DNA from: Methyloversatilis sp.
GTDB taxonomy: Bacteria > Pseudomonadota > Gammaproteobacteria > Burkholderiales > Rhodocyclaceae
Assembly (NCBI RefSeq): GCF_030698125.1
Contig: NZ_JAUYNV010000010.1
Location: 1-64,000 of the forward strand
Reading direction: 5' to 3'
DNA: 64,000 nucleotides
The position numbers were made by a program, and so were the translations under genes. Positions 10,623-62,213 of this stretch are shown here, piece by piece. Each line of letters opens with the position of its first letter. Position 1 is the stretch's first letter. The notes below the pieces were generated by a model. The model was not told where the DNA came from. It was given only the letters and a program-made list of their open reading frames with translations, and did no database searches.

Positions 10623-11035
10623 TCACTTAACCGGATAGGCAGTAATCAGCTTATTAGTGCCCGGACGCACAACGATCTTGATGCTTGTTTCCCCAGTGGT
10701 ACCCACAACTCTCCCCAGTGGTATCACATACGAACCTGGATCATTCGGGAGCGGTTCCCCTCGTTTTTCCCACGCCTCGTCGATTAATGCAAGAACTTGC
10801 TTTCGATCCACGTTGAAAATGGTGTGAGTTCGCTTTTTGGGATTTTCTACTGCGTGATCGAGTACATGCTTGATGCGATTACCATGGATAGAGCCGATCC
10901 CATACTCAAGCCCTGCGGGGGTTCTCCATACTTTTGAAACTTTGTCATAAACGAGTGCGATCGAGGTTGCAGCAATATTCTCTTCTGGGCTTGAGTTTCT
11001 TCCGTTGGAAAAGGAGTCATCGTGTAGGCGCAGCA
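10623..11035 (-). other. Variable C-terminal toxin tip of the FHA/CdiA-like protein
   Basis: This covers about the last 135 codons of the exoprotein. Sequence composition changes sharply near 11035: upstream coding DNA is very GC-rich, while this part is clearly AT-richer. The end contains HGNRIKHVLDH, VLALIDEAWEKR, and ITAYPVK at the very C-terminus, a layout like BECR-fold RNase toxins of polymorphic toxin systems. That fold call is from memory and is an inference. Together with the zinc-ribbon gene it forms a likely exchangeable toxin-immunity module. Confidence 0.5.
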
Positions 11036-14000
11036 GCTTCTGCCCCCCCACCTCGATCACCCGTGCGACGAACTGCCCGGCCTTCGTCATCAGCACTGCG
11101 CCGACGACCAGATCCTCCGGGCCGGGCAGCAACAGCGATGCGCCGGCCGCTGACAGCACGACGACGTTGTCGATATTCCGCGCCGTGATGGCGCCGACGT
11201 ACTGGCTGCTGCCCTGCGGGGCGAACGCGTAGGCCTCGGGGTCGGGTGCGAAGTCCTGGCGCACGATTTCGTCCGACAGCGGGCGCGCCATCAGGCGGTC
11301 GAACAGGGACAGGTTGTGGGCGACGGCGTCGGCGTTCTGCTGCGCGCCGAGCCACGGGTTTTCGGGGTCCATGTCGCCCGGAAGATGCGCACCCATGCCA
11401 AGTGGCATGGCCTCGGTCATCAGGCGGTAGTAATCGGTACATAAGCCGGTCGTTTCGCAGGCTTCACGCGCGTCCGCCAGCGCGCGCTTGTTCGCCTGCG
11501 ACTTCTGACTGAACTCGGCGTCGACCGCCTGAAGGCATGCCGCGTCGCCACCACATGCGTTCCGCGCATCTGCGTAGCGAACCTGTTCCTGATGCTTCAG
11601 GTAGTTGAACAGCGTGACGTTCTGCGCCGCCCAACCAGCCGTCACCGGATCGCCGCCGGCCAGTCCGGATGCCGTGCCGCCGACCAGCATCGAAAACGCG
11701 GTCAGGGCAATCTCCCGGTCCGGACCGCTCAGATCGAGGGCATCGTCGAGCGGCGCTTCCACGAGGGTGGCTGTGATCGCGCCGAGGGCGCCGGAGTACG
11801 GGTCGTCGCCGCGGGCGGCGGCGGTCAGTGCGCCGAGCACGCCATGTGCCAGCGTGTGGCCGAGACTGCCTTGCGGGCCGAAGTTGCCATTGCCGATCTG
11901 GTTGGCGCCCAGTGCGGACGCTTCGTTGATGACGGCATTGAACAGTGCGTTTTCGAAGCCGGCGCCGGTCAGTTCGCCGACGGCGCCAGTGGTCAGCGCA
12001 CGGACGGACCAGCGACCAATGGCTGACTCGATGTGCGCGTTTGCCCAGGCGCCGGTACCTGCCGTGACGGCGCCAGCCAGCCCGCTGGTCAGGGCCGCGT
12101 CGACATCGATGCGGCCGGTCGCAACGAACTGACCGATCGCGCTCGACAGCGTCTGCGTAATGGCCGCGGTTCCGGCAACGTTGGCGAGACCGGGCGCGGC
12201 AAAGGCAGTGGCCGCCGACCACGCCGGACCGAAGTTGGTCGCCAGACTGCCGATGAGATTCGACATCTGCGGGCCGATCAGCATGCTGGCGGTGAAGCCG
12301 GCCACGACGCCCACCAGATCGCCGAAGCTGCCACTTTTCCGGAAGCGGTAGCGCAGGTTGTCGCGCGCTTCTTCGTAGCGGTAGGCATCGCCCAGTTCGG
12401 CCGCAATCTGCGTTTCGAAGGCGCGACTCAACGCGCCCGTGTGCGCTGCGTCTTCGCCCAGCACGCGGAATTCGCCGGATACCGAGCGCACCGATGAAAC
12501 CTGCAGATTCCACACGGCAGCCTGCATGAAACCGCCGGGCTGCACGGTATTGCCTTCGATGGTCAGCGTGCCGCCACTGACCTTGCGCTTTTCGTAGAAG
12601 TAGGCGGACCGCTTGCGGTTGAGCAGTGTGTCGGCCGTGAGGGTCAACGCGCCGTCGGACAGGACGAAGCCGGTGTTGTCGACGCGCTCGCCCGTCAGTT
12701 CGATGGCGACGCCGGCATCGAGCGCGCCGCCGGGCACGACGGCCAGTTGCGCCTGCCAGTCGGAAGGCAGATACACAATGGGGTGCAGTTGACCGCCGCG
12801 TGCGGCGTACCAGAGCACGGGTGCGCCCAGCAACGACTGCTGACCCGCCGTGAGATCGGCACCCATCGCAATGCCGTGTTCAATGGCAAACGCGGCGCCG
12901 TTGGCCGCCAGGATGGCGTGCTCCTGCTGTTGTGGCGACTGCCCGGTGAGCGCGTCCCATGTCAGGCCGGGCAGTATCCAGCCGCGGCGGGTGGTCGCGA
13001 GGAAGGCGTTGCGCAAGGCCGCCGCCTCTTCTGCCGGCGTGAGCGCAAAGGGCAGCGTGCTCGCCAGCCCGGGCGGAAGCAGGCGCATCAGCGCCGCACC
13101 GCTGTAGCGGTCCGCGGTCAGGACCGGCAGCAGCGAGCTGCCGTGAATACCGAAACCGGCGACATTGATCTGCGCAGGCGGGACGGTCGGCTCGGCAGTG
13201 CGATGGTAGTAGTCCGCGACAACGTCGAAGCCGTTGCGGATGTCTGCGGCCCTGACGACGATGCTCGCGGCGTGGATATTGCCGGTATTGACGAAGGACG
13301 AAAGCGGGGGAGGCGTGTCGGTCATGCTGAGCACACCTGTCGACAGCATCCGGGCGAGCGCTTCGGTCAGCGTGCCCGACACGATTGGCGGCATCGCAGG
13401 CGCCGGGCCATCGGAAGAGGGAGGCGTGGGGGTCGTCGAGGGCGGACTGACCGGACCGCCATCCGAAACGAAGCGGCCACCCGCCTGGATCACCCCGGGC
13501 AGCACGCCCAGTTCGAGCGCGCCGCTGTCGGTTCGCCGCCAGTCGATGTCGACAACGCAGTCGCTGGTGCAGGGCGTACCGACGGATTGCGCATCGACGT
13601 CGATCAGGTAATAGCTCGACGACCAGACGGCGCCGTAGCGACGATCTTCGTTCACGACATCGGGCGCGTCGATGCGGATGTCGCGACCGGCAAGGATGGA
13701 CGCGCCGCGGTTGTGGAAGAAGGACGTCGCGGCGACCAGGTCCCGCCCGACCAGCATCAGCGCGTGTGACGACGGCACTTCGGTGGTCGTCGTGCACAGC
13801 CCGTCGTACTCCGTGCGACAGCCGGGATAGTAGGGATAGTCGAAGGAGGCCTGCCGGCTGCCGACCGCGGTTTCATTGCTGATGCCACGCGCGCCGATCA
13901 GCAGATCGCGGCCTGCATCGATGACCGACGGATTGATGAAGTGGGCGTTCAGCGCGATCACGAGGTCGTGGCCGGCGGTCAGCCGGTCGCGATTCACGTA

Positions 14001-15555
14001 GGGGTGCCGCGCCACAGCTTCGGCTGGCGTGCCCGCATCGGACAGCCAGGGGCGATCGATCAGGTGCAGGTTTCGCGTTGCGGTGAAGGACTGCCGGCGC
14101 GCACCGTCCAGCCATTGCGCGCCCTCGGCGGGGGTGTGGATGAACAGGTCGCGTCCCGCATTCACCTCCCCTGCGAGGTCGATGTTCTCCGGCGCAAGGA
14201 AGCCGGGCTGGCCGCGTCGTGTCTGCGACAGGAACACATCGCGCCCGGCCGAAATGTCGCCGCTGTTGTCGATCAGGTTCAGAAACAGGTCGCTGCCCGC
14301 ATGGATCACGCCCGAGTTGGCCAGCGTGACGCCGTCGACGTTTACGGCGTGCTCGCCATGACTACCCGGTAGCCCGGCGTCACCCGCCCGGACCTGCACG
14401 TTGCCGGACGCTGCATCGATCGATGCGCCGGCGAGAATGACGCCCGTGTTGAGGCCCGTGCCGGGTCCGGCAAACGTCAATGAAGCGCTTGCGTCGATCA
14501 GACCGTCATTGCGGAAAGCGCTCCATCGGTCGGAATTGTCGCCAACGAATCCCAGGCCGATGTCGCGGCCCGCCGTGATGCGCCCCGTGTCGGCCAGCGT
14601 GATGCCGGTTGCGAGCAGCGTGACGTCGCGCCCGGCCATGAGCGCACCCTGCAGCACCGATTCGAAGGCACCGATGTTGTACAGCGCGATGTCGCGCCCC
14701 GCCGTCACGTCGCCGCTCAGTTCGATGTGTCCGCGCGTGGCGATCACCACATCGTCCAGTGCGATCAGCGGCGCGGTGCTGCGCACCCCCAGCTCGCCAC
14801 CGACCGCGATCAGCCGGATGCTCGCCGCGCTGACGCTCTGGCCGATGTCGATGGAAAACGCCTCGAAATCCTCCGGAAGCGGCGCATCTGCATTGCCGAG
14901 GGCCAGCGTGTCGGCATCGACCCGGGTGCGCCCGGCGATCACTTCGAGCGTCGAGCCGGGTCGCCAGTGCAGACAGTCCGCCTGCACCGATGTCGATCCG
15001 TCCGCCGGACACGTCGAAGCGCAGGGCGTCGTTCAGTCGCTCGATGCGGCCGGTGCTGAGCTGGACGTGAGGCGTGTTGATGAAGCCGCATCCATCACAC
15101 GTGATGCCGTTCGGGTTGGCGATGACCAGCCGTGCCGCCTGCCCGGCGATTTCGATGCTGCCCAGCAGCAGGCTGGGCTGGCTGCCGCTCACTTCGTTCA
15201 GGATGACGCGTGCCGCCGATCCGTTCAGCGCTGCATTCGCCGGCAGCGGTCCGGCCAGCACACTGCTTGCATCGCCGGCCGAATTGTTGAACACGAGACC
15301 GTGGCGCGACACATCGAAGGTCGTCCAGCGATTGTGCGAAATGCCTGCCGCGTCCGGCGCGGTGATGCCGACCACCGGTACATCGCCCACCCGGGTCACG
15401 ACAGCCTGCTGACTCGCCGGGCCCGCCAGGTCGACGACGGCATCGGCACGGACGGGCGGTGCATGGGCGAGCATCACCGTGAGCACGACGCCCGCCCCGC
15501 ACCACGTCAGCGGGTTGATTGACCGCTGCAGCAACTTCCTGAGTGCGGTGCGCAT
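10623..15555 (-). pseudogene. FHA/CdiA-like two-partner secretion exoprotein, frameshifted
   Basis: The N-terminal part reads from ATG 15555: signal peptide, then a TPS secretion domain with the NPNGI motif (LVIANPNGITCDGC). Its frame runs out of homology near 14950 and ends at 14506. The rest lies in another frame, open from GTG 14987 to the stop at 10623 (1454 residues). It holds haemagglutinin repeats (many xAGRDI/L units), a DUF637-like glycine/alanine-rich region, a VENN-like pre-toxin segment (AAQNVTLFNYLKHQE) and a C-terminal toxin-like tip. It follows the transporter and parvulin genes in one operon. As assembled, it cannot give a full-length secreted protein; a sequencing or assembly error is possible. 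Confidence 0.75.
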
Positions 15556-25753: not shown

Positions 25754-26449
25754 ATGAAGGCCATGATCCTGGCCGCCGGACGCGGCGAACGCATGCGGCC
25801 GCTGACCGACCACCTGCCCAAGCCGCTGCTGGAAGTCGGCGGCAAGCCGCTGATCGTGTGGCACATCGAGCGGCTGGTGGCGGGCGGCGTGACCGATCTG
25901 GTGATCAACCACGCCCACCTCGGCGACAAACTGGTGGAAGCGCTGGGCGACGGCGCGGCATTCGGCGCGTCGATCCGCTGGTCGGCCGAGCCGCCGGGCG
26001 CACTCGAAACCGCCGGCGGCATTGCGCATGCGCAGCCGCTGCTCGGCGCACAGGCCTTCATCGTGATCAATGGCGACATCTGGTGCGATGTCGAGGTCGC
26101 GGCCCTGCAACGCGCCGCCGGCACGCTGCAGGCGGACGGCCCGCTGGCCCATCTGCTGCTGGTGCCGAATCCGCCGCATCACCCCGACGGCGACTTCACG
26201 CTGATCGACGAACAGGTGGGCGAAACCGGTGGGCCGAAACTGACGTTTTCCGGCGTCGCCGCCTACCACCCGTCACTGTTCGGCGCACTCGACCCGGATG
26301 CGCCGGCGAAACTTGCACCGCTGCTGCGCGCAGCGATGCGCGGGCGGCAGGTGACCGGCGCGCTGCACACCGGCCACTGGTTCGACGTCGGCACACCGCA
26401 GCGGCTGGCCGAGGTCGATGCGCTGGCGCGCGCGGTCAGCGCTCGCTGA
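25754..26449 (+). CDS. murU: N-acetylmuramate alpha-1-phosphate uridylyltransferase
   Basis: A 231-residue nucleotidyltransferase. The N-terminal signature MKAMILAAGRGERMRPLTDHLPKPLL, shown here only by its key parts (LAAGRGERMRPLTD and KPLLEV), binds the nucleotide. VINGDIWCDV carries the metal-binding Asp. It follows amgK by 10 bp. The 3' end overlaps the convergent histidine kinase gene by 14 bp. Confidence 0.9.
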   Translation: MKAMILAAGRGERMRPLTDHLPKPLLEVGGKPLIVWHIERLVAGGVTDLVINHAHLGDKLVEALGDGAAFGASIRWSAEPPGALETAGGIAHAQPLLGAQAFIVINGDIWCDVEVAALQRAAGTLQADGPLAHLLLVPNPPHHPDGDFTLIDEQVGETGGPKLTFSGVAAYHPSLFGALDPDAPAKLAPLLRAAMRGRQVTGALHTGHWFDVGTPQRLAEVDALARAVSAR

Positions 26450-27911
26450 GCAGGGGAATCGTCAGTTCCACACGCATGCCGTGGCCGCCTTCGCCATCTA
26501 GCAGCGCAATCTGCCCGCCGAGCCGTTCGACCACTTCGCGCACGATGGCCAGCCCGAGGCCGCTGCCGCTGCCGGCCGAACCGGGTATGCGGTAGTAGGG
26601 CTCGAACACCCGTTCGCGCAGCTCGACCGGAATGCCCGGACCCGCGTCGCTGACCGACAGCACGGCCTGACCGTCGCGAGCGGCCAGCGCAACCTGGATC
26701 GCGCTGCCCGACGGCGCATACCGCTGGGCGTTGTCGATCAGGTTGCCCACCATGCTGGACAGACCGGTCGCGTCCGCCAGCAGCATGCACGGTGCGTCGC
26801 ACAGATCGAGTTCCAGCGGATGGCCGCTGGCGTCGCAGCCCGGCCGGCGCTGCGCCACCGCATCGCGGGTCACGTCGCGCAATGACACCGGTACGCAGTC
26901 TGTCTGGCGGCCGGCGCGACTGTGCGCCAGCATCTGTTCGGCCAGATGCACCGATCGCGACACACCGGCCAGCAGGTGATCGAGCGAGGCGTCGCGCTGT
27001 GCGGCGTCTTCCGCGCGGCGGGCGTTCTGGGCATGTATCTTCAGTGCGGCCAGCGGTGTCCGCAGTTCGTGCGCGGCAGAATCGATGAAACGACGTTCGC
27101 GTTCCAGCGTGCTGCGCACACGGCCGAACAGGCCGTTGAGCGCGCTCAGCACCGGTTCGATTTCGCTCGGCACGCGGGTCAGCGACAGCGGCTCGTCGTC
27201 CTGCGGTCGACGGGCGGCAATGCGTTCGGCCAGTTCGGACAGCGGCGCCAGCCCGTAGCCGATCAGCAGGCCGGTCAGCAGCAGCACGATCAGCAAGCCG
27301 ATCAGCAGCGGCGCACCGGTGGCCCAGCCCAGCTTGGCCGACAGTTCCTCGCGCGCATCGGCGCGCTCGGCAACCTGTATCCACACGTCGCCCGAATGCA
27401 GCACGAACACGCGCCAAACGCCGTCCTCCAGCGTGTGGTCGCTGAAGCCCTTGCGCAGCGGTGCGAAGGGTGAGGCCGGCGCAGACGAGGAGCGCGCCAG
27501 CAGCGCGGCGGCACCCTCGTCTTCCGCTTCGCTCCATATCTGGTAGGCAATATGGGTTTCGTATTCATGGCCGAGCGAGGACTCGACATCGTGATGCCCG
27601 AACAGCCAGTCCTGCAGGTGCCATGAAAAAGACATGTTCGCCCCGGCTTCGTGCGCCCGGGCCCCGGCGCGGATCGGCGCCGGCAGATCCATGACCAGCG
27701 GAGAACTGAGGGTGGCGTGTTCGATCTGGCGCGCCATCAGGCTGTCGAGCACGCGGGCGGACGTGGCGAGGCGGGCATCGAACAGCTCGTCCGCCTCGTA
27801 GCGTCCGGCCACGACGGCCAGCCACACGGTGCTGCCCAGCACACCGAGCAGGATGACTGCGCTGCCGGCCAGCAGCAGCAGGCGTATCGATACGCGGCCC
27901 GGCTGCACCAC
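26436..27911 (-). CDS. Sensor histidine kinase, QseC/PmrB-like
   Basis: A 491-residue inner-membrane kinase. Two transmembrane helices (about 9-35 and 200-221) flank a periplasmic sensor region of about 160 residues. A HAMP region follows, then the dimerisation helix with His281 (SAAHELRTPLAALK) and an ATPase domain (NLIDNAQRYAP, VSDAGPGIP, GSGLGLAIV). The GTG start lies one base after the stop of the response regulator gene. The two close the seven-gene operon that begins at 32951, so the signal may relate to the product of the upstream enzymes. Signal unknown. Confidence 0.88.
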   Translation of the reverse strand: MVQPGRVSIRLLLLAGSAVILLGVLGSTVWLAVVAGRYEADELFDARLATSARVLDSLMARQIEHATLSSPLVMDLPAPIRAGARAHEAGANMSFSWHLQDWLFGHHDVESSLGHEYETHIAYQIWSEAEDEGAAALLARSSSAPASPFAPLRKGFSDHTLEDGVWRVFVLHSGDVWIQVAERADAREELSAKLGWATGAPLLIGLLIVLLLTGLLIGYGLAPLSELAERIAARRPQDDEPLSLTRVPSEIEPVLSALNGLFGRVRSTLERERRFIDSAAHELRTPLAALKIHAQNARRAEDAAQRDASLDHLLAGVSRSVHLAEQMLAHSRAGRQTDCVPVSLRDVTRDAVAQRRPGCDASGHPLELDLCDAPCMLLADATGLSSMVGNLIDNAQRYAPSGSAIQVALAARDGQAVLSVSDAGPGIPVELRERVFEPYYRIPGSAGSGSGLGLAIVREVVERLGGQIALLDGEGGHGMRVELTIPLLSER

Positions 27912-27912
27912 G

Positions 27913-28629
27913 TCAGCGGTCGGACCGGGCAGCCGCCGGCAGCGGATCGATCACATAGCCGACACCGCGCACCGTGCGGATCAGGCCGGGGTGCAGCTTG
28001 CGCCGCAGATTGTGGATGTGCACATCGAGCGCATTGCTCTCGAGCTCACTGTCCCAGCCGTAGATGTTGTCCACCAGCTGTTGCCGGCTCAGCACGTGGC
28101 CGATGTTTTCCAGCAGTTTGCGCAGCACCATGTATTCACGGCGCTGCAGGTCGACGCTGCGGCCATCCGCGCTGACCGTCATCGCCGAGGTGTCGATCTC
28201 GATGCTGCCGTGACGGATCACGTTGACGACCGCACCCCGCGTGCGCCGCTCCAGCACACGGATGCGCGCCATCAGTTCGTCAACATCGAACGGCTTCGTC
28301 AGGTAGTCATCGGCACCGGCATCGAGGCCGCCGATGCGCTGCAGTGTGGTGTCGCGCGCACTGAGCACCAGCACCGGCGTGGTGACGCCGGCCTCGCGCG
28401 CACGGCGCAGCACTTCCATGCCATCCATCCGCGGCAGGCCGAGATCGAGCACGGCCAGATCGACGCCCGAACCACGCAGCGCCTCAAGCGCCTGTGCGCC
28501 ATCGCGCACCCACTCGACGGTGTAGCGCGTACGCTCGAGCGCATCGCAGATGCCGCTGCCGAGCAGCTCGTCGTCTTCAACCAGGAGAACCCTCATCGGT
28601 CGGATCGCGCCATATCGGAAGTGCGTCAT
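27913..28629 (-). CDS. OmpR-family response regulator, QseB/PmrA-like
   Basis: A 238-residue regulator. The receiver domain has acidic residues in VEDDELL, phospho-acceptor Asp62 (AVLDLGLP) and Lys in TKPFDVDEL. The winged-helix DNA-binding domain contains VDLQRREYMVLRKLLENIGHVLSRQQL and ends LRRKLHPGLIRTVRGVGYVID. The start at 28629 is supported by a GGAG site eight bases upstream; a start at residue 12 (MRVLLVEDD) lacks one. It lies 46 bp after the TPR gene of the same operon. A PmrA/QseB-type box at 32994-33010 upstream of the operon is a likely target. Confidence 0.88.
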   Translation of the reverse strand: MTHFRYGAIRPMRVLLVEDDELLGSGICDALERTRYTVEWVRDGAQALEALRGSGVDLAVLDLGLPRMDGMEVLRRAREAGVTTPVLVLSARDTTLQRIGGLDAGADDYLTKPFDVDELMARIRVLERRTRGAVVNVIRHGSIEIDTSAMTVSADGRSVDLQRREYMVLRKLLENIGHVLSRQQLVDNIYGWDSELESNALDVHIHNLRRKLHPGLIRTVRGVGYVIDPLPAAARSDR

Positions 28630-28675
28630 TGTCGCTCCAAAACGCGTTGCGGCCGGGCCTGCGGTGGCAGGTGGT

Positions 28676-29320
28676 CTACTTGAGCTTCTCTTTCACCTTG
28701 ACCATCAGGGCTTCGATCTCCTTGCGGCGCCCTTCGTCGGCCAGCGGGCGGTTCGGCCGTGCCGGCGCCTTGAGCGCCGTCTCGAGCGATGCACGCGCCT
28801 TTTCATACTCGCCGGCCCGGTACAGGCAATCGCCCATGAAATAGTGCGGGTCGATGCCATGCGGGTTGAGCGCGAGTGCCTTGTTCAGCAGTTCACGCGC
28901 CTTGTCCTTGTCGCCGAAGCCGATCGGCCAGCCGGGCACCTGGCAGTACAGCGACGACAGCGTCACGTAAGCCGAGCCATTCAGCGCCTCCGGATTTCGC
29001 GCCAGCGACTGTTCCAGCACGGTGCGCGCTTCCTTGGCCAGCGACAGTGCGCCGAGCCCGCCCTTCGCACCCGCCTGGCTGGCCAGTGCGATGGCGTACC
29101 AGATGTCGGCTTCGGAGCGGTCCGGATGCTCTGCGCGCACGGCGGCGGCGACCTTGATCAGCGCCTCATAGGCCTTTTCCTGCTTGTCGGCCGGCTGCGT
29201 GTACTTGATCTGTTCCCACTCCGACTGCAGTCGGGTGATCGACTCGTCCAGACCCGCCCAGGCCGGCGTGATCAGGAACAGGGCGGTAACGGACAGGAAG
29301 GACTTGATCGACATCCTCAT
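28676..29320 (-). CDS. Secreted tetratricopeptide-repeat protein of the oxidase operon
   Basis: A 214-residue protein with a signal peptide (MRMSIKSFLSVTALFLITPAWA) and helical TPR-type repeats (for example ALNPHGIDPHYFMGDCLYRAGEYEKARASLETAL). It should sit in the periplasm, unlike the cytosolic enzymes encoded upstream. TPRs usually mediate protein contacts; a partner could be the sensor kinase's periplasmic domain, but this is a guess. The start at 29320 follows GAGGAG. It begins 14 bp after the SDR gene. Confidence 0.78.
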   Translation of the reverse strand: MRMSIKSFLSVTALFLITPAWAGLDESITRLQSEWEQIKYTQPADKQEKAYEALIKVAAAVRAEHPDRSEADIWYAIALASQAGAKGGLGALSLAKEARTVLEQSLARNPEALNGSAYVTLSSLYCQVPGWPIGFGDKDKARELLNKALALNPHGIDPHYFMGDCLYRAGEYEKARASLETALKAPARPNRPLADEGRRKEIEALMVKVKEKLK

Positions 29321-29334
29321 TTTGCGGACTCCTC

Positions 29335-30144
29335 TCATTTGCTGACTGTTTGTGCATGACGACGAATGACCGGCAGCTGCTTTGCGAGGCTGGAATCGAC
29401 CAGCGACGGCAGCATACGGTTGATCCGGACGAAAAGACGTTCCGGCCAGCCCAGGTGGCCTTCCGGACGCCGGTTGTCGAGCAGCGCCAGCAGCGCCTGC
29501 GCGACGGTTTCAGGCGTATCGCTGGCGACGCCCAGTTCGCGGTTCAGCGCGACCTGGGCCGGGCTGTTCAGTGCGGTCTGCGTGGCACGCGGCGCGAGGT
29601 ACTGCAGTTCGATACGGCTGCCGACGAGCTCGCGGCGCAGCGCTTCGCTGAAGCCGCGCAGCGCGAACTTGCTCGCGCAGTAGGCAACGCTGCCCGGATG
29701 ACCGATATCGCCCAGGATCGAGCCGATGTTCACCACGCGCGCCTTCTTCTGCCGGTGCAGCAGCGGCAGCAACGCGTGCACCAGCAGCATCGGCGACAGC
29801 GCATTGGTGTGCAGGATGTGTTCGATCTGTTCGGCTGACTGGTCCTCGAACCATGCGAGCTGGCCGACACCGGCGTTGTTGATCAGCAGGTTCGCACCGT
29901 CCGGCAAGGCTTCGGCGGCCACCAGCACGGCGCCACGGCCCGCTGCAGTCGTCAGGTCGGCGCGCACGATGCGCGCGTCCAGCGCGGGAAATGCGAATGT
30001 CAAGTCCGCCTGCAGCGCCGCCAGTTTCACCACGTCGCGACCGACCAGCAGCAGCGCGGCACAGCGCGGAGCCAGCGCCTTCGCAATGGCCGCGCCGATG
30101 CCGCCCGTCGCGCCGGTCAGCACCCCGCGCAGATCCGCCTTCAT
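29335..30144 (-). CDS. Short-chain dehydrogenase/reductase
   Basis: A 269-residue classical SDR. The NAD(P)-binding motif GATGGIGAAIA is at residues 11-21, the structural NNAG at 89-92, and the catalytic residues are Ser142, Tyr155 and Lys159 (YCASK). It overlaps the upstream oxidase gene by 4 bp (ATGA), indicating translational coupling. It probably reduces a carbonyl, or oxidises an alcohol, of the operon's unknown metabolite. Confidence 0.88.
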   Translation of the reverse strand: MKADLRGVLTGATGGIGAAIAKALAPRCAALLLVGRDVVKLAALQADLTFAFPALDARIVRADLTTAAGRGAVLVAAEALPDGANLLINNAGVGQLAWFEDQSAEQIEHILHTNALSPMLLVHALLPLLHRQKKARVVNIGSILGDIGHPGSVAYCASKFALRGFSEALRRELVGSRIELQYLAPRATQTALNSPAQVALNRELGVASDTPETVAQALLALLDNRRPEGHLGWPERLFVRINRMLPSLVDSSLAKQLPVIRRHAQTVSK

Positions 30145-30821
30145 GCCGCGACCGCCTCGTGCTGAGGCGTCAGCGAGCGAGTCAACGAGCGGAACAGGTC
30201 GCCATAAAGCCGGTACATCACGCGTGCCACATGGATGACCGCGAGCCGGTCGTCCTCGTCGTCCAGGCTGTCCATCAGGGTGGCGAAGAAGCGCACGTGC
30301 TCCTGGTCCAGCGTGCCGTGGGAATTGAGGTAGGTGAAGGCGGCCGGCGGCAGGTGCAGGCTGTGCGCGATGCGCTCGGCCGCGCTGGTCGCGATCGACA
30401 CGCTGGTGCCTTCGAGCACATGCACCATGCCGAAGAATCCGACCGGGTTCTTGCGCGCAATCCAGTCGTGTGCGTAGGCCACCATCAGTTCGGCCTCGAC
30501 CCCGGGCTCGGCGTTGCGGGCGGCTTCGCGCTCGCCACCGCAGGCCGCAATGTCGTCGAGTATCCATTCCTCGTGGCCGATCTCCTCGTCGATGTATTCG
30601 GCAATGGCGTGCCGCAGCGCTTCGTGCCGCGCCGGCAGGCGCGCGCCGCAGGCCATCAGCAGCGGCACGGTGTGCCGGACGTGATGGAAGGCCTGACCGA
30701 GGAAGGCTCGGTACTGCGTCAGTGTCACGCGACCCGATACAGCGTCCTGCAGGATGGGAGCGCTCAGCAGGTGGGCGCGTTCGGCAGCGGTTTCGCGCTG
30801 CAGGCGTTCATGAAACGACAT
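30141..30821 (-). CDS. Haem-oxygenase-like di-metal oxidase (UndA/BesC-type fold)
   Basis: A 226-residue all-helical protein of the iron-containing redox enzyme family. The full set of three His and three carboxylate ligands expected for haem-oxygenase-like diiron enzymes can be placed: Glu80-x2-His83 (EEIGHEE), Glu137 (VLEGTS) and His168-x3-Asp172-x2-His175 (HGTLDQEH). Known relatives include UndA, which makes 1-undecene from lauric acid, and amino-acid or N-oxygenases such as BesC and SznF. The upstream ligase gene overlaps its start by 14 bp, and the SDR gene overlaps its stop by 4 bp. It is not likely a TenA thiaminase, because those lack these metal ligands. Substrate unknown. Confidence 0.8.
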   Translation of the reverse strand: MSFHERLQRETAAERAHLLSAPILQDAVSGRVTLTQYRAFLGQAFHHVRHTVPLLMACGARLPARHEALRHAIAEYIDEEIGHEEWILDDIAACGGEREAARNAEPGVEAELMVAYAHDWIARKNPVGFFGMVHVLEGTSVSIATSAAERIAHSLHLPPAAFTYLNSHGTLDQEHVRFFATLMDSLDDEDDRLAVIHVARVMYRLYGDLFRSLTRSLTPQHEAVAA

Positions 30822-32283
30822 CGGGAAAGGTCTCCGCAGTGAAGGGAAGGTGTGCTTCGGGAGGTGCTTCGTACAGCACGGCGAGCCGTTCGCCGTAGGC
30901 CCGGAAGATGGGATCCCTGCGCACGCGGCCGTTGTCGGTCGCCTGCCCGTTGAGCGCAGAAAAAGGCGCGTCGGCACGCAGCCAGTGAATGATCCGGGCG
31001 TAATCGGGCAGGCGGTCGTTGGCCGCGCGCACCACGGCGGCGAGCGCTTCGTCGGTCACCTCGCCGCGCGGAACGATGACGGCGCACAGCCCCGGCCGAC
31101 CTTCGCCGAACACGACTGCCTGCGCCACGGATGGCGCGGCCAGCAGTTCCGCTTCAGGCCATTCGGGCGCCACGTTGCGACCGAAGCCGGTAATGATCTG
31201 GTGCTTGATGCGACCGGTGACGTGCAGACAGCCGCGCGCATCGACGTGGCCGATGTCGCCGGTGTGCAGCGGTCCGTCGGCCGGCGGGGCAGCGCCCAGA
31301 TAGCCGGCCGGTCGGCTGCCATGCAGCAGGATTTCGCCATCCGGCGCGATCTCCGCCCGCAGGTGGGGCAGCACGCGACCGACCGCGCCGGGCGCGTCGT
31401 CCGGCCGGTTCAGTGCCACGACCGAACCCGCTTCGGACAGGCCATACCCTTCGCACGCCGGAAAACCGAGCGCCCGCGCTCGCGTGATCAGGTCGGGCGA
31501 CACCCGGGCGCCACCGACCGCCACCAGCTTCAGGCCACGCGGTACCGGTGCCCCAGCCTCGGCCGCGGCCACCAGCGCGGTCAGCATCTGCGGCAGCAGG
31601 ATGACGCTGTCCGGCTGCCAGCGATGCAGCGCTGCCAGCGCGGCCCGCACATCGAAACTGCTCGAACCGTGCAGCCCGACGTCGGCCAGCGGCAGCACCA
31701 CGCATTCGCCATCGAGCGCGATGGCCACATCGGCGCCCGCCACATTTTCGAGCAGCACGGCCAGCGGCAGCATGCACAGGTGGCGCCGGATACCCAGTTC
31801 GCGTACAACCTGCACCAGCGAACCGGTGACCGCCGACAGTTGCGCGGCCGTCAGGCAGACCCCCTTGGGCTGGCCGGTCGTACCCGAGGTGAAGGTAATC
31901 TTGGTGGTCATCGGCGGGACGACGACCGCCGATTCATTGCGCCGTGTCCACACCGACAGACCTTGCGACGATCTCGTGTCGGCGCTCAATCCGAGTCGCG
32001 CGGCGCGTGACGGATCATCCGTCAGCAGCACCGGCGCCCCGGCGGCATCGAGCGCGTGCCGGCACTGTGCGTCGGTGAAGAAGGTCGGCAACGGCAGGGC
32101 GACCCGGCCGGCCCGGCGGATGGCCCGATCAGCCACCAGCCAGTCGATGCCGTTGTCGGCCAGCAGGGAAACGACCTGCCCCGGGCACCCGGCCAGCCGT
32201 TCGGTCAGCGCGTCGACGCGGCCGATGACGGTCGCGTCATCGGCGACACCGTGGGCATCGATCAGGACTGCCTGACGGCTCAC
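30808..32283 (-). CDS. AMP-forming acyl/aryl ligase
   Basis: A 491-residue member of the adenylate-forming superfamily. Motifs: phosphate-binding TSGTTGQPKG (residues 132-141), the YGLSEAGS motif, and HTGDIGHVDARGCLHVTGRIKHQI near the hinge. The A10 motif reads ATDNGRVRR, with Arg453 where most family members have the catalytic Lys (GKxxR). This may weaken or alter adenylation, or be normal for this subgroup. It begins with GTG at 32283, overlapping the hemolysin-family stop (GTGA). It probably activates a carboxylic acid for the oxidase or for the GNAT-like protein. Confidence 0.82.
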   Translation of the reverse strand: MSRQAVLIDAHGVADDATVIGRVDALTERLAGCPGQVVSLLADNGIDWLVADRAIRRAGRVALPLPTFFTDAQCRHALDAAGAPVLLTDDPSRAARLGLSADTRSSQGLSVWTRRNESAVVVPPMTTKITFTSGTTGQPKGVCLTAAQLSAVTGSLVQVVRELGIRRHLCMLPLAVLLENVAGADVAIALDGECVVLPLADVGLHGSSSFDVRAALAALHRWQPDSVILLPQMLTALVAAAEAGAPVPRGLKLVAVGGARVSPDLITRARALGFPACEGYGLSEAGSVVALNRPDDAPGAVGRVLPHLRAEIAPDGEILLHGSRPAGYLGAAPPADGPLHTGDIGHVDARGCLHVTGRIKHQIITGFGRNVAPEWPEAELLAAPSVAQAVVFGEGRPGLCAVIVPRGEVTDEALAAVVRAANDRLPDYARIIHWLRADAPFSALNGQATDNGRVRRDPIFRAYGERLAVLYEAPPEAHLPFTAETFPDVVS

Positions 32284-32951
32284 GCCGCGTCCTCGACCAC
32301 GGTGTGCAGGCCGCTGGCAATGCGGCCGACCATGACGGTCGGGCTGTTGCGGTAGTAATTGCCCCAGTTGCCGACGCCATCGTGCAGCCGCGCCGGGTCG
32401 GCCACGCCCACCGGAAAGATCGGGATGCCGAGGCGCACGAATGAATTGGCCAGCGCACGGGTCGCCGTGAACACCACGTAATCCAGACCCTGCGCGTAGA
32501 AATGCTGCGTGGCAAGCGCAATCAGCAGGCGCCCCAGTCCGGCGGACGTCGATGCCATATTGCCCACTTCGGCCACCGCGCTGCGTGCGACCCGCTCGCC
32601 GAGCACCCCGCCCAGTGCGCTTTCCAGCGGTACGTCGAGATACTGTTCGATGAATACCGGACGCACGCCCGGCAGGCTGTAGCCCAGTCCGGCCGCCCAT
32701 TGGCCATCGCTGTTGCGCACCCCCAGCAGCGTGTCGGCAAAGTGCGTGATCACCGCACCGTAGCCGCGGAAAAAACAGCCGGCGATGAAGCGCTCGAGCG
32801 CGGCGCGTTCCGGATGCAGCCGGCCGACGACTTCGAGCGCCGGGTCGGACAACACGGGCGCCATGGCGCGACCCAGCACGCATGCACGGACACCGGCGGA
32901 ATGCGCGGCGGACTTTCCTGCAAGGGTACTCAGTGTTGCGGCCTGGTTCAT
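32280..32951 (-). CDS. Thermostable-hemolysin-family protein
   Basis: A 223-residue protein of the thermostable hemolysin family, first named from Vibrio. That family is placed, as I recall, with GNAT-like acyltransferases, so a cytolysin role is doubtful. Features: AALERFIAGCFFRGYGA, YSLPGVRPVFIEQYLDVPLE, VAEVGNMAS and GLDYVVFTATRALANSFVRLG. No signal peptide is seen. It is the first gene of the seven-gene operon; ATG 32951 follows a GGAGG site. An N-acyltransferase or synthase role working with the ligase fits the context but is inference. Confidence 0.75.
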   Translation of the reverse strand: MNQAATLSTLAGKSAAHSAGVRACVLGRAMAPVLSDPALEVVGRLHPERAALERFIAGCFFRGYGAVITHFADTLLGVRNSDGQWAAGLGYSLPGVRPVFIEQYLDVPLESALGGVLGERVARSAVAEVGNMASTSAGLGRLLIALATQHFYAQGLDYVVFTATRALANSFVRLGIPIFPVGVADPARLHDGVGNWGNYYRNSPTVMVGRIASGLHTVVEDAA

Positions 32952-32993: not shown

Positions 32994-33010
32994 ATTAATG
33001 GAGACTTAAG
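32994..33010 (-). promoter_or_regulatory. PmrA/QseB-type direct-repeat box upstream of the oxidase operon
   Basis: On the minus strand the sequence is CTTAAG, five bases, then ATTAAT. This fits the PmrA/QseB-type consensus YTTAAK-N5-YTTAAK with one mismatch. It is centred about 50 bp upstream of the first gene (start 32951). The operon's last two genes encode a regulator of this type, so autoregulation is likely. Confidence 0.6.
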
Positions 33011-59758: not shown

Positions 59759-60514
59759 TCAGCGGTCGGCGGCATCCTGCACAGTCAGGCCGCGCAGCAT
59801 GAGCTCGTGGCGCATGGCCGCCATCGCTGCGGCGACTTTTGCGGGTTCGCCCTTGGCACCCAGTTCGATGTGCGGATAGGCGCGTTCGGCATTGCCGAAG
59901 CAGGGCAGGCTGAACACCGTCACACCATGCTCGCGCTCGATCGCTTCCATCATGTCGAGCAGCCTGCTTTCATGCGCATTCGGCACATAGACCGAAGATT
60001 CGCGCCAGGCGCTCGTGTGGTGCAGGTCGCGGTAAGGGTTGTCGAGCAGCCACTCGATCATCGGCCAGGCCATTTCGGGGAAGCCGGGCACAAAGTGGTG
60101 ATGGCCGCAGCTGAAACCCGGAATGCGGTTGAACGGATTCGGAATGATTTGACTGCCGGCTGGAAACTCGCCGAGCCGCAGGCGATTCTCGGTCGTTTCG
60201 GCGCCGAAGCGGGCGCGGATTTGCGCCTCGGCTTCCGGATGCAGCACACACTCGACACCCAGCGCTGCAGCAGCGGCTTGCCGCGTGTGATCGTCCGGCG
60301 TGACGCCGATGCCGCCGCATGAGAAAACGATGTCGTCGGTCGCCAGGGTGCGGCGGAAGGTTTCGATCAGCCGTTCGCGCTCGTCGCCCAGATAACTCAC
60401 CCACGACAGTTGCAGGCCGCGTTCGGCGAGCAGCGCACGAACCTTGGCGAAGTGGCCGTCCTGACGACGCCCGGACAGGATTTCGTCGCCGATGATGTAA
60501 AGGCCGATGGCCAT
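59759..60514 (-). CDS. CinA N-terminal-type molybdopterin-binding domain protein
   Basis: A 251-residue protein of the MoaB/MogA fold. Motifs: LYIIGDEILSGRRQDGHF, VFSCGGIGVTPDDHTRQAAAAALG and PGFPEMAWPMIEWLL. It contains only the N-terminal domain of CinA and lacks the nicotinamide deamidase part. Related stand-alone proteins are annotated as competence/damage-inducible, but no function is established. It lies 37 bp after ubiD on the same strand. Confidence 0.83.
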   Translation of the reverse strand: MAIGLYIIGDEILSGRRQDGHFAKVRALLAERGLQLSWVSYLGDERERLIETFRRTLATDDIVFSCGGIGVTPDDHTRQAAAAALGVECVLHPEAEAQIRARFGAETTENRLRLGEFPAGSQIIPNPFNRIPGFSCGHHHFVPGFPEMAWPMIEWLLDNPYRDLHHTSAWRESSVYVPNAHESRLLDMMEAIEREHGVTVFSLPCFGNAERAYPHIELGAKGEPAKVAAAMAAMRHELMLRGLTVQDAADR

Positions 60515-60551
60515 GGTGCATTCCTCTTGTTGTTTGACCGCGGCAGAAAAC

Positions 60552-62045
60552 TCAAAGCCCCAGCTCGGACCACATCGCGTCGACCCGGCGTTTCACGTCA
60601 GCGTCCATCGTGATCGTTCGCCCCCATTCGCGCGTGGTTTCGCCCGGCCACTTGTTGGTCGCATCCAGCCCCATCTTGGAGCCGAGACCGGCAACCGGGC
60701 TCGCGAAATCAAGGTAGTCGATCGGCGTGTTGTCGACGATGACCGTGTCGCGCCGCGCGTCCATGCGCGTGGTCATCGCCCAGATCACCTCCTGCCAGCT
60801 GCGGATGTCCACGTCCTCGTCCACCACGATGATGGTCTTGGTGTACATGAACTGGCGCAGGAAACTCCACACGCCGAACATGACGCGCTTGGCGTGACCG
60901 GGGTACTGCTTGCGCATGGACACCACGGCCAGACGGTACGAGCACCCTTCCGGCGGCAGATAGAAATCGGTGATTTCCGGAAACTGCTTCTGCAGCAGCG
61001 GCACGAACACCTCGTTCAGCGCCACGCCCAGCATGGCCGGTTCATCCGGCGGCTTGCCGGTATAAGTGGAGTGGTAGATGGGATTCCTGCGCATCGTGAT
61101 GCGCGTGATCGTGAACACCGGAAACTCCGCCACCTCGTTGTAGTAGCCGGTGTGGTCGCCGAACGGCCCTTCCGGCGCGTGTTCGTAGCCGGACGGGTGG
61201 TTCGTGTCCGGGCGCAGTTCGCCCTCGAGCACGATTTCGGCGCTGGCCGGCACATCGAGATCGTTGCCGATGCATTTCACCAGTTCGGTCCGGCTGCCGC
61301 GCAAGAGGCCGGCGAACTGGTACTCGGACAGCGTATCGGGGACCGGCGTCACCGCACCGAGTATCGTCGCCGGATCGCAGCCGAGCACGACCGACAGCGG
61401 AAACGGCGTGCCCGGGAATTTGCGCGCATGGTCGCGGAAATCGAGAGCGCCGCCGCGGTGGGCCAGCCAGCGCATGATCACCTTGTCCGGCGCGATCACC
61501 TGCTGGCGATAGATGCCGAGGTTCTGCCGCTTCTTGTCCGGCCCGCGCGTCACGACCAGGCCCCAGGTGATCAGCGGCCCGGCGTCATCCGGCCAGCAGG
61601 TCTGCACCGGCAGGCGGCCGAAGTCGACATCCTTCCCCTCCCACACGACTTCCTGGCAGGCGGCCGACGACACCCTTTTCGGCGCCATGGAAAACACCTG
61701 CCGGATCATCGGCAGCTTGTCCCATGCATCGCGCAGGCCCTTCGGCGGTTCGGGTTCCTTCAGCATCGACAGCGTGCGACCAATGTCACGCAGCGCCTCG
61801 GCCCATTTCTCGCCGCTGACACCCATGCCCAGCGCCACCCGGCCCGGCGTGCCGAACAGGTTACCCAGTACCGGCATGTCGAAGCCGGCAGCGTTCTCGA
61901 ACAGGATGGCCGGGCCTTGCGCGCGCAGGACGCGGTCGCAGATTTCGGTCATTTCAAGATTCGGCGACACCGGGCGCGCGACGCGCTTCAGTTCGCCCAA
62001 TTTTTCGAGCTGCGCGATGAAATCGCGCAAATCCGTGTATTTCAT
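60552..62045 (-). CDS. ubiD: 3-octaprenyl-4-hydroxybenzoate decarboxylase (prenyl-FMN dependent)
   Basis: A 497-residue UbiD enzyme of ubiquinone synthesis. Motifs: [22 protein letters not shown] at the start, the metal/prFMN-binding [10 protein letters not shown] region and [12 protein letters not shown] with conserved acidic residues, [11 protein letters not shown] and [16 protein letters not shown]. The start at 62045 fits the family; the open frame further upstream is not coding-like. It needs the UbiX prenyl-FMN synthase, not seen in this window. Confidence 0.95.
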
Positions 62046-62213
62046 GTCGTGGTGCGGCTCCCGTGCATCGCACCCTGCTGCATCCCGCACAGGGCGCGGC
62101 CGATGGTAAGCGATAAGTGACGGCGCCGTACCCCGGATGCCGCCACAGACATCGATTCGCCGTCGACGTTCCGGCACAGCTGTCGCAACCGTCATCTGCG
62201 GCCCGCTGTCAGA

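Follow-up and report, generated by a model that had tools for sequence, protein, structure and literature searches.

What does a gene annotated as a hemolysin do at the head of a row of metabolic enzymes? The question is raised by an operon of seven genes at 26436–32951, minus strand, in a 64,000-nucleotide stretch of Methyloversatilis sp. (the window; positions 1 to 64,000 of contig NZ_JAUYNV010000010.1, assembly GCF_030698125.1). With a probability of roughly 0.55, we propose that the operon forms a transferable cassette, under its own regulation, for the biosynthesis of an acylated and oxidised small amphiphile. The computed basis of this proposal is the gene order, predicted folds, conserved catalytic residues, a regulator box with its position, and the insertion site; the acyl acceptor, the chemistry, the product, the role of a tetratricopeptide repeat (TPR) protein and the signal of the kinase are what we infer.

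The first gene encodes Thl, a protein of the "thermostable hemolysin" family (32280–32951; PF12261, 4.7e-51). It is followed by an AMP-forming acyl ligase (30808–32283; PF00501 and AMP-binding_C_3), a haem-oxygenase-like di-metal oxidase (HDO; 30141–30821; Pfam Haem_oxygenas_2), a short-chain dehydrogenase (SDR; 29335–30144; Pfam adh_short and NF006565, the PRK09072 equivalog), the TPR protein (28676–29320; Pfam TPR families), an OmpR-type, PmrA/QseB-like response regulator (27913–28629, or with its start at 28596; Response_reg and Trans_reg_C) and a QseC-like sensor histidine kinase (26436–27911; HisKA, HATPase_c and a 2CSK_N-type sensor region). An earlier interpretation made from the letters of the window, here called the sequence-only reading, had named the same seven families, and Pfam backs each of them. 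The coordinates of the open reading frames (ORFs) likewise bear out the minus-strand arrangement it described, with overlaps of 4 bp (Thl/ligase), 14 bp (ligase/oxidase) and 4 bp (oxidase/SDR) and gaps of 14 bp (SDR–TPR), 46 bp (TPR–regulator) and 1 bp (regulator–kinase). The 14-bp gap assumes that the TPR gene starts after a ribosome-site-like stretch; an alternative upstream ATG at 29338 would turn it into a 4-bp overlap.

Thl itself is a clear member of the T_hemolysin family, scoring 173.5 bits against a curated cut-off of 27, and all 61 Thl members match PF12261, with no other family below 0.006. The predicted structure (pLDDT 85.4) points in another direction than the name. In a fold search with this model, all nine of the best structural matches were N-acyl-homoserine lactone (AHL) synthases such as LuxI, LasI and TofI, and the model thus has the AHL-synthase fold. 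This likeness comes from the fold search only, as a sequence search of the PDB with the Thl alignment profile gave no match. Glu128 is the candidate catalytic residue; it is invariant in 61/61 and 29/29 sequences and aligns, with moderate score, to a glutamate of LuxI. We rejected AHL synthesis proper because the residues conserved in LuxI are missing and the 21 families listed for the 61 members do not include PF00765 (LuxI). Only two of ten LuxI-invariant columns, taken from six LuxI-like reference sequences, are kept in Thl (the glutamate and one glycine). In the same moderate-score alignment, LuxI Glu46 and Asp48 fall opposite a gap, Asp51 stands opposite a threonine, and Arg27, Arg72 and Arg106 are not shared. 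Neither by profile match nor by its acidic and arginine residues, then, does Thl belong to the LuxI family, and the seven genes of the operon include no LuxR-type gene.

Closer in kind are the N-acyl amino acid synthases FeeM, Nas354 and commendamide synthase, to which Thl is similar in predicted fold and in the invariant glutamate at the LuxI/FeeM-type position, although it forms a separate Pfam family and has its own ligase, oxidase and SDR alongside. Thl is therefore probably an acyltransferase of the predicted AHL-synthase/N-acyl-amino-acid-synthase fold. The term "GNAT-like" in the sequence-only reading caught the type of transferase, but was too loose for a protein that specifically resembles AHL synthases and FeeM in its predicted fold. 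The published N-acyl amino acid synthases also score as hemolysins when their genes are expressed, owing to their lipid product. Most simply, the hemolysis behind the family name of Thl is likewise caused by a lipid product rather than by a protein toxin, and the first gene is probably misnamed as a hemolysin.

The published view of the cluster is a different one. No product of the gene set was seen in a literature search limited to open-licence PubMed Central, so that the description of the set as uncharacterised holds for its product, but the cluster as such is already in print. The operon corresponds to the dth/delta-VPH region of vibrios (described in part of PMC12208996), and the same operon in Vibrio and Pseudoalteromonas was earlier read in terms of hemolysis or virulence, without a biosynthetic product being assigned. 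Its V. parahaemolyticus members include the hemolysin VP1729, the oxidase VP1731 and the QseC-type kinase VP1735 (listed in PMC10469919). In V. cholerae the ligase adjoining the hemolysin is VCA1110; according to the relevant section of PMC12208996, a transposon mutant of this gene fed a C13 fatty acid made C15 and no C17, as did two other mutants. PMC6262041 presents a potentially virulence-related cluster with an iron transporter and QseBC in Pseudoalteromonas and cites a thermostable hemolysin homologue of V. alginolyticus as a zebrafish toxin. In the Methylophilaceae, a hemolysin cluster was likened to that of V. cholerae (in a passage of PMC10872708).

On these reports, and on the family name, rests the explanation that Thl is a secreted protein hemolysin which the other genes support. 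The V. cholerae protein was moreover reported to be hemolytic in lysate and supernatant, as summarised in PMC4046660, yet the same paper, on Serratia, states that no signal peptide was identified in the Serratia homologue or in the Vibrio protein. Together with the predicted acyltransferase fold and a ligase as next gene in 26 of 30 phylum-sample loci (those among the matches listed, of 78 matching genomes), this makes a toxin cluster seem quite unlikely to us. This Serratia homologue belongs to another operon, together with genes for a TauD dioxygenase, an AMP ligase and efflux, and in an rsmA mutant no gene was induced more strongly (184-fold; PMC4046660). That a ligase accompanies it there as well, in a separate arrangement, is in keeping with an acyltransferase role.

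Per-gene alignments of the genes that follow Thl, filtered by length and always including the window, comprised 79 ligases, 80 HDOs, 81 SDRs, 76 TPR proteins, 62 regulators and 59 kinases. In the ligases, the A3 threonine, A7 aspartate and A8 arginine occur in 79/79 sequences and the A5 glutamate in 78/79, as in AMP-forming ligases; the A10 lysine is present in only three sequences, with arginine in 74, among them the window ligase. In the oxidase, the only match of its kind in the source genome, the proposed ligands Glu80, His83, Glu137, His168, Asp172 and His175 are each found in 80/80 sequences. Both the haem-oxygenase-like fold, from the fold search, and the six ligands, from the alignment, place it in the HDO superfamily with CADD, UndA, HrmI and 3dde; the ligand roles are those that we take to be likely from the alignment and from general knowledge of the superfamily. 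Unlike CADD, it has Trp86 at the position of His88, with His83 nearby (CADD numbering as we presume it), and it forms a separate, highly conserved group. In a term search, the 2026 HDO review showed no mention of hemolysin or Shewanella. With UndA in the same superfamily, one may also picture an oxidase that acts on free fatty acids in a UndA-like hydrocarbon or fatty-acid oxidation, with ligase and SDR recycling the product; we hold this to be very improbable. The SDR reaches 316.3 bits against NF006565 (cut-off 238). The N terminus of the TPR protein looks like a signal peptide by eye, which suggests that the protein is probably exported. Its residues 41–181 match BstC, a TPR protein of sterol transport (3.4e-8), although designed TPR proteins rank above it, and its match to NF045602 (6.4e-11) lies under the cut-off.

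For the biosynthetic cassette, these parts suggest the following sequence of events. The ligase would activate a fatty acid, and Thl would move the acyl group to an amine, probably an amino acid or a derivative of one and not S-adenosylmethionine. The intact oxidase and the SDR could next carry out oxidation and reduction on a conserved portion of the molecule, while the exported TPR protein might handle the lipid in the periplasm or present it there. The histidine kinase would read the product, or a state of the envelope affected by it, and the response regulator would feed back on the promoter of its own operon. Activation and oxidative tailoring of an acyl or amino acid substrate had been suggested before; the set does look biosynthetic, with functions for acyl activation, GNAT-type transfer, di-metal oxidation and short-chain dehydrogenation, and its order is conserved. 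A comparable logic is found in the tyz cluster of M. tuberculosis for acyl-oxazolones, where an N-acyltransferase acts first and the N-acyl amino acid is then oxidised in an O2-dependent step (outlined in PMC10404671). The tyz cluster has a flavin oxidase and a ThiF homologue, in contrast to the di-metal oxidase and SDR of the present operon. Genome papers on Vibrio and Aeromonas count the T_hemolysin family among the virulence genes. If the proposal is true, a toxin-named, virulence-listed family would consist of acyltransferases making a small lipid, and the annotation would mislead. A single transferable cassette would combine a two-component system with a di-metal oxidase and an enzyme resembling AHL synthases, and its study could give ready access to a new class of lipids, to a new reaction of di-metal oxidases and possibly to a new signalling circuit.

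The sequence-only reading would have been refuted by the absence of a conserved gene order in other genomes, but the order recurs in congeners and in the class sample alike. T_hemolysin genes occur in 13/13 genomes of the genus (source included), in 2/24 others of the family, 2/24 others of the order, 29/274 genomes of the class sample and 78/398 of the phylum sample (77 above cut-off). In 12/12 congeners the full order of the seven genes is kept. The class sample gives 28 loci besides that of the window; in 21 of them the genes for Thl, ligase, oxidase, SDR and TPR protein are all present, in 13 with the regulator and kinase downstream as well; one of the loci counted (L087) has a Thl that scores only 24 bits against that of the window. 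The remaining seven comprise two at contig ends (L066, L073), one with Thl alone (L086), a partial locus (L088), one with none of the set (L090) and two in which no oxidase was found at the locus (L078, L089). In L083–L085, TPR and SDR genes are swapped. The named loci (the best 80 of 581, with a bias towards close oxidases) include 76 with the core; in 60, the complete set of seven shares one strand. The cassette is widely conserved, and its gene order is real beyond chance. Records with the operon come from Methyloversatilis, Polynucleobacter, Azotobacter, Pseudomonas, Massilia, Lysobacter and vibrios; Mariprofundus records, which are metagenome-assembled genomes, have the core. Methyloversatilis, Polynucleobacter, Azotobacter and Mariprofundus are environmental groups, and their possession of these genes is a further point against a toxin cluster.

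That the cassette is transferable is suggested by its insertion site, for which 30 loci among the matches listed (of 44 matching genomes) were compared. The operon adjoins pepP in 13/13 Methyloversatilis genomes. Its other flank is murU-amgK in the window and in 11/12 congeners, the twelfth having no murU within the stretch examined. In 16/17 other relatives examined, murU stands next to pepP and the operon site is empty. The cassette of about 6.5 kb hence has an empty-site counterpart in relatives. An oxidase search of a plasmid collection gave 48 matches, of which 26 remote oxidases or fragments were left out, including all 23 Pseudomonas plasmids (25 at 22.5–30.4% identity, one partial at 43.6%); the other 22 had at least 45% identity, some on chromosome-size records, and neighbours were read for three. 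The five-gene core is found on a conjugative V. parahaemolyticus plasmid (L221), where a cytochrome b561 gene lies divergently beside it, and on a Citrobacter plasmid. In a plasmid record from Pseudoalteromonas the whole set of seven is present, and after it come genes annotated as cupredoxin, "iron transporter" and hypothetical protein; TPR genes were identified in all three.

Neighbours of this kind bear on the idea of an iron-linked system, with iron as the signal of the kinase and a product that binds or mobilises it, for instance as an acyl hydroxamate-like metallophore. In some gammaproteobacterial loci the operon strand also encodes a cupredoxin (9 of the 107 loci compared), an FTR1-type permease (11) and an unassigned protein (12); 15 near-identical or same-genus loci had been left out of this comparison. 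The PmrA type of the regulator box and the Mariprofundus genomes with the core would fit, and iron activation was proposed in PMC6262041, in its treatment of the Pseudoalteromonas cluster. The window operon, however, has no FTR1 gene, and one was found in 11 of the 107 loci, some of which are cut by contig ends. We consider an iron-linked function unlikely. The extension is found in the gammaproteobacterial relatives L075, L076, L080–L083, L107, L112, L158, L159, L162, L169 and plasmid L223, including Porticoccaceae, Microbulbifer and Glaciecola; not all three genes were detected in each, and Pfam was run on examples only.

Self-regulation is suggested by the promoter. The regulator and kinase resemble PmrA/QseB and QseC in architecture, but score below all curated NCBIfam cut-offs (QseB 214.9/345, PmrA 221.5/330, QseC 225.4/475) and so lie outside the QseBC and PmrAB equivalogs. 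Upstream of Thl, at 32994–33010 on the minus strand and starting 59 bp before the first start codon, lies CTTAAG-TCTCC-ATTAAT, i.e., a PmrA-type box of the form CTTAAG-N5-ATTAAT. It is an exact fit to the verified Salmonella PmrA boxes, given as CTTAAG-N5-XTTAAT in the pertinent part of PMC3973317. The strict pattern CTTAAK-N5-MTTAAK has a single match in the 4.2-Mb source genome, at the operon promoter; it occurs once each in 8/13 genomes of the genus (source included), always at the operon promoter, with no match in the other five. This pattern was chosen after the window box was known, whereas the Salmonella definition is independent, and its reversed control matches in 7/13 of these genomes. 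It is therefore the position of the strict matches, and not their rarity, that makes the case that the clearest target of the regulator is its own operon; where the site is present, it differs in this from PmrAB and QseBC. A looser PmrA-type pattern has two sites in the source genome, against three for its reversed control; the second lies at C29:4342–4358.

We surveyed YTTAAK-N5-YTTAAK between −150 and −10 of Thl in 75 of 78 loci with Thl, three being too near a contig end, and called a regulator at 180 bits. At up to one mismatch, the box was found in 35/60 loci with a regulator, 3/9 without and 2/6 cut by contig ends; at up to two, in 56/60, 5/9 and 3/6. The background at one and two mismatches was 1.3% and 8.1% in dinucleotide shuffles and 0.5% and 2.5% in random stretches of the same loci. 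Presence versus absence of the regulator gave Fisher p values of 0.28 and 0.008, and 0.14 and 0.026 in an earlier version before the tighter window and the 180-bit rule. The box itself is clear, whereas its association with the regulator is only moderate. One locus scored as lacking a regulator (L158) has regulator fragments and a perfect box.

That the operon has its own two-component system is true of many loci, often with the matching type of box, but in part of them the pair is replaced or absent, and we therefore count five genes as the core. Where the PmrA/QseB-type pair is missing, some loci have an OmpR-type regulator and a HAMP kinase upstream of Thl (L066, L068, L070–L072), and in L049, L077, L084, L086, L144, L156 and L168 a divergent kinase and regulator lie beside it; domain scans of L068 and L156 identified the L156 system as a sigma-54 activator with a dCache kinase. 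In others, such as L067, L105 and L118, no two-component system was seen nearby. In L144, L156 and L168 (also L077, L084 and L086), small periplasmic-looking and porin-like proteins, judged by eye and without a Pfam match in L156 or L168, are encoded upstream on the Thl strand, beside the divergent system.

Partial distance correlations were computed for 47 of 60 complete loci, and for 29 of these after dereplication. The kinase sensor domain correlated with the TPR protein at 0.40 and 0.39 and with Thl at 0.22 and 0.21, versus 0.08 and 0.07 and −0.13 and −0.15, respectively, for the kinase catalytic core. Ligase, oxidase and SDR showed no clear excess of sensor over core in either set. One may speculate that the cassette is a mobile, self-contained signalling circuit across Pseudomonadota, in which the LuxI-fold synthase and the oxidase would make a new class of N-acyl autoinducer; the linked kinase, aided by the exported TPR protein, would sense it and thereby turn on the operon. 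The promoter box and the co-variation of the sensor domain bear on such a response indirectly. We regard this circuit as possible but rather doubtful; autoinduction is attractive but unproven.

Elsewhere in the window, ORFs of 1454 and 537 amino acids (10623–14987, minus strand; 60507–62120, plus strand) gave no Pfam match at 1e-3. Several pseudomonads have cytochrome b561 genes near the operon, as do one betaproteobacterial locus and the V. parahaemolyticus plasmid. These genes lie downstream on the same strand in L099, L128, L136, L145, L152, L163 and L170, upstream and divergent in L117, L146, L149, L153 and L221, and further off in L161. In L074 (4627–6113), a radical SAM gene and a pyridoxamine-phosphate-oxidase-like gene stand between ligase and oxidase.
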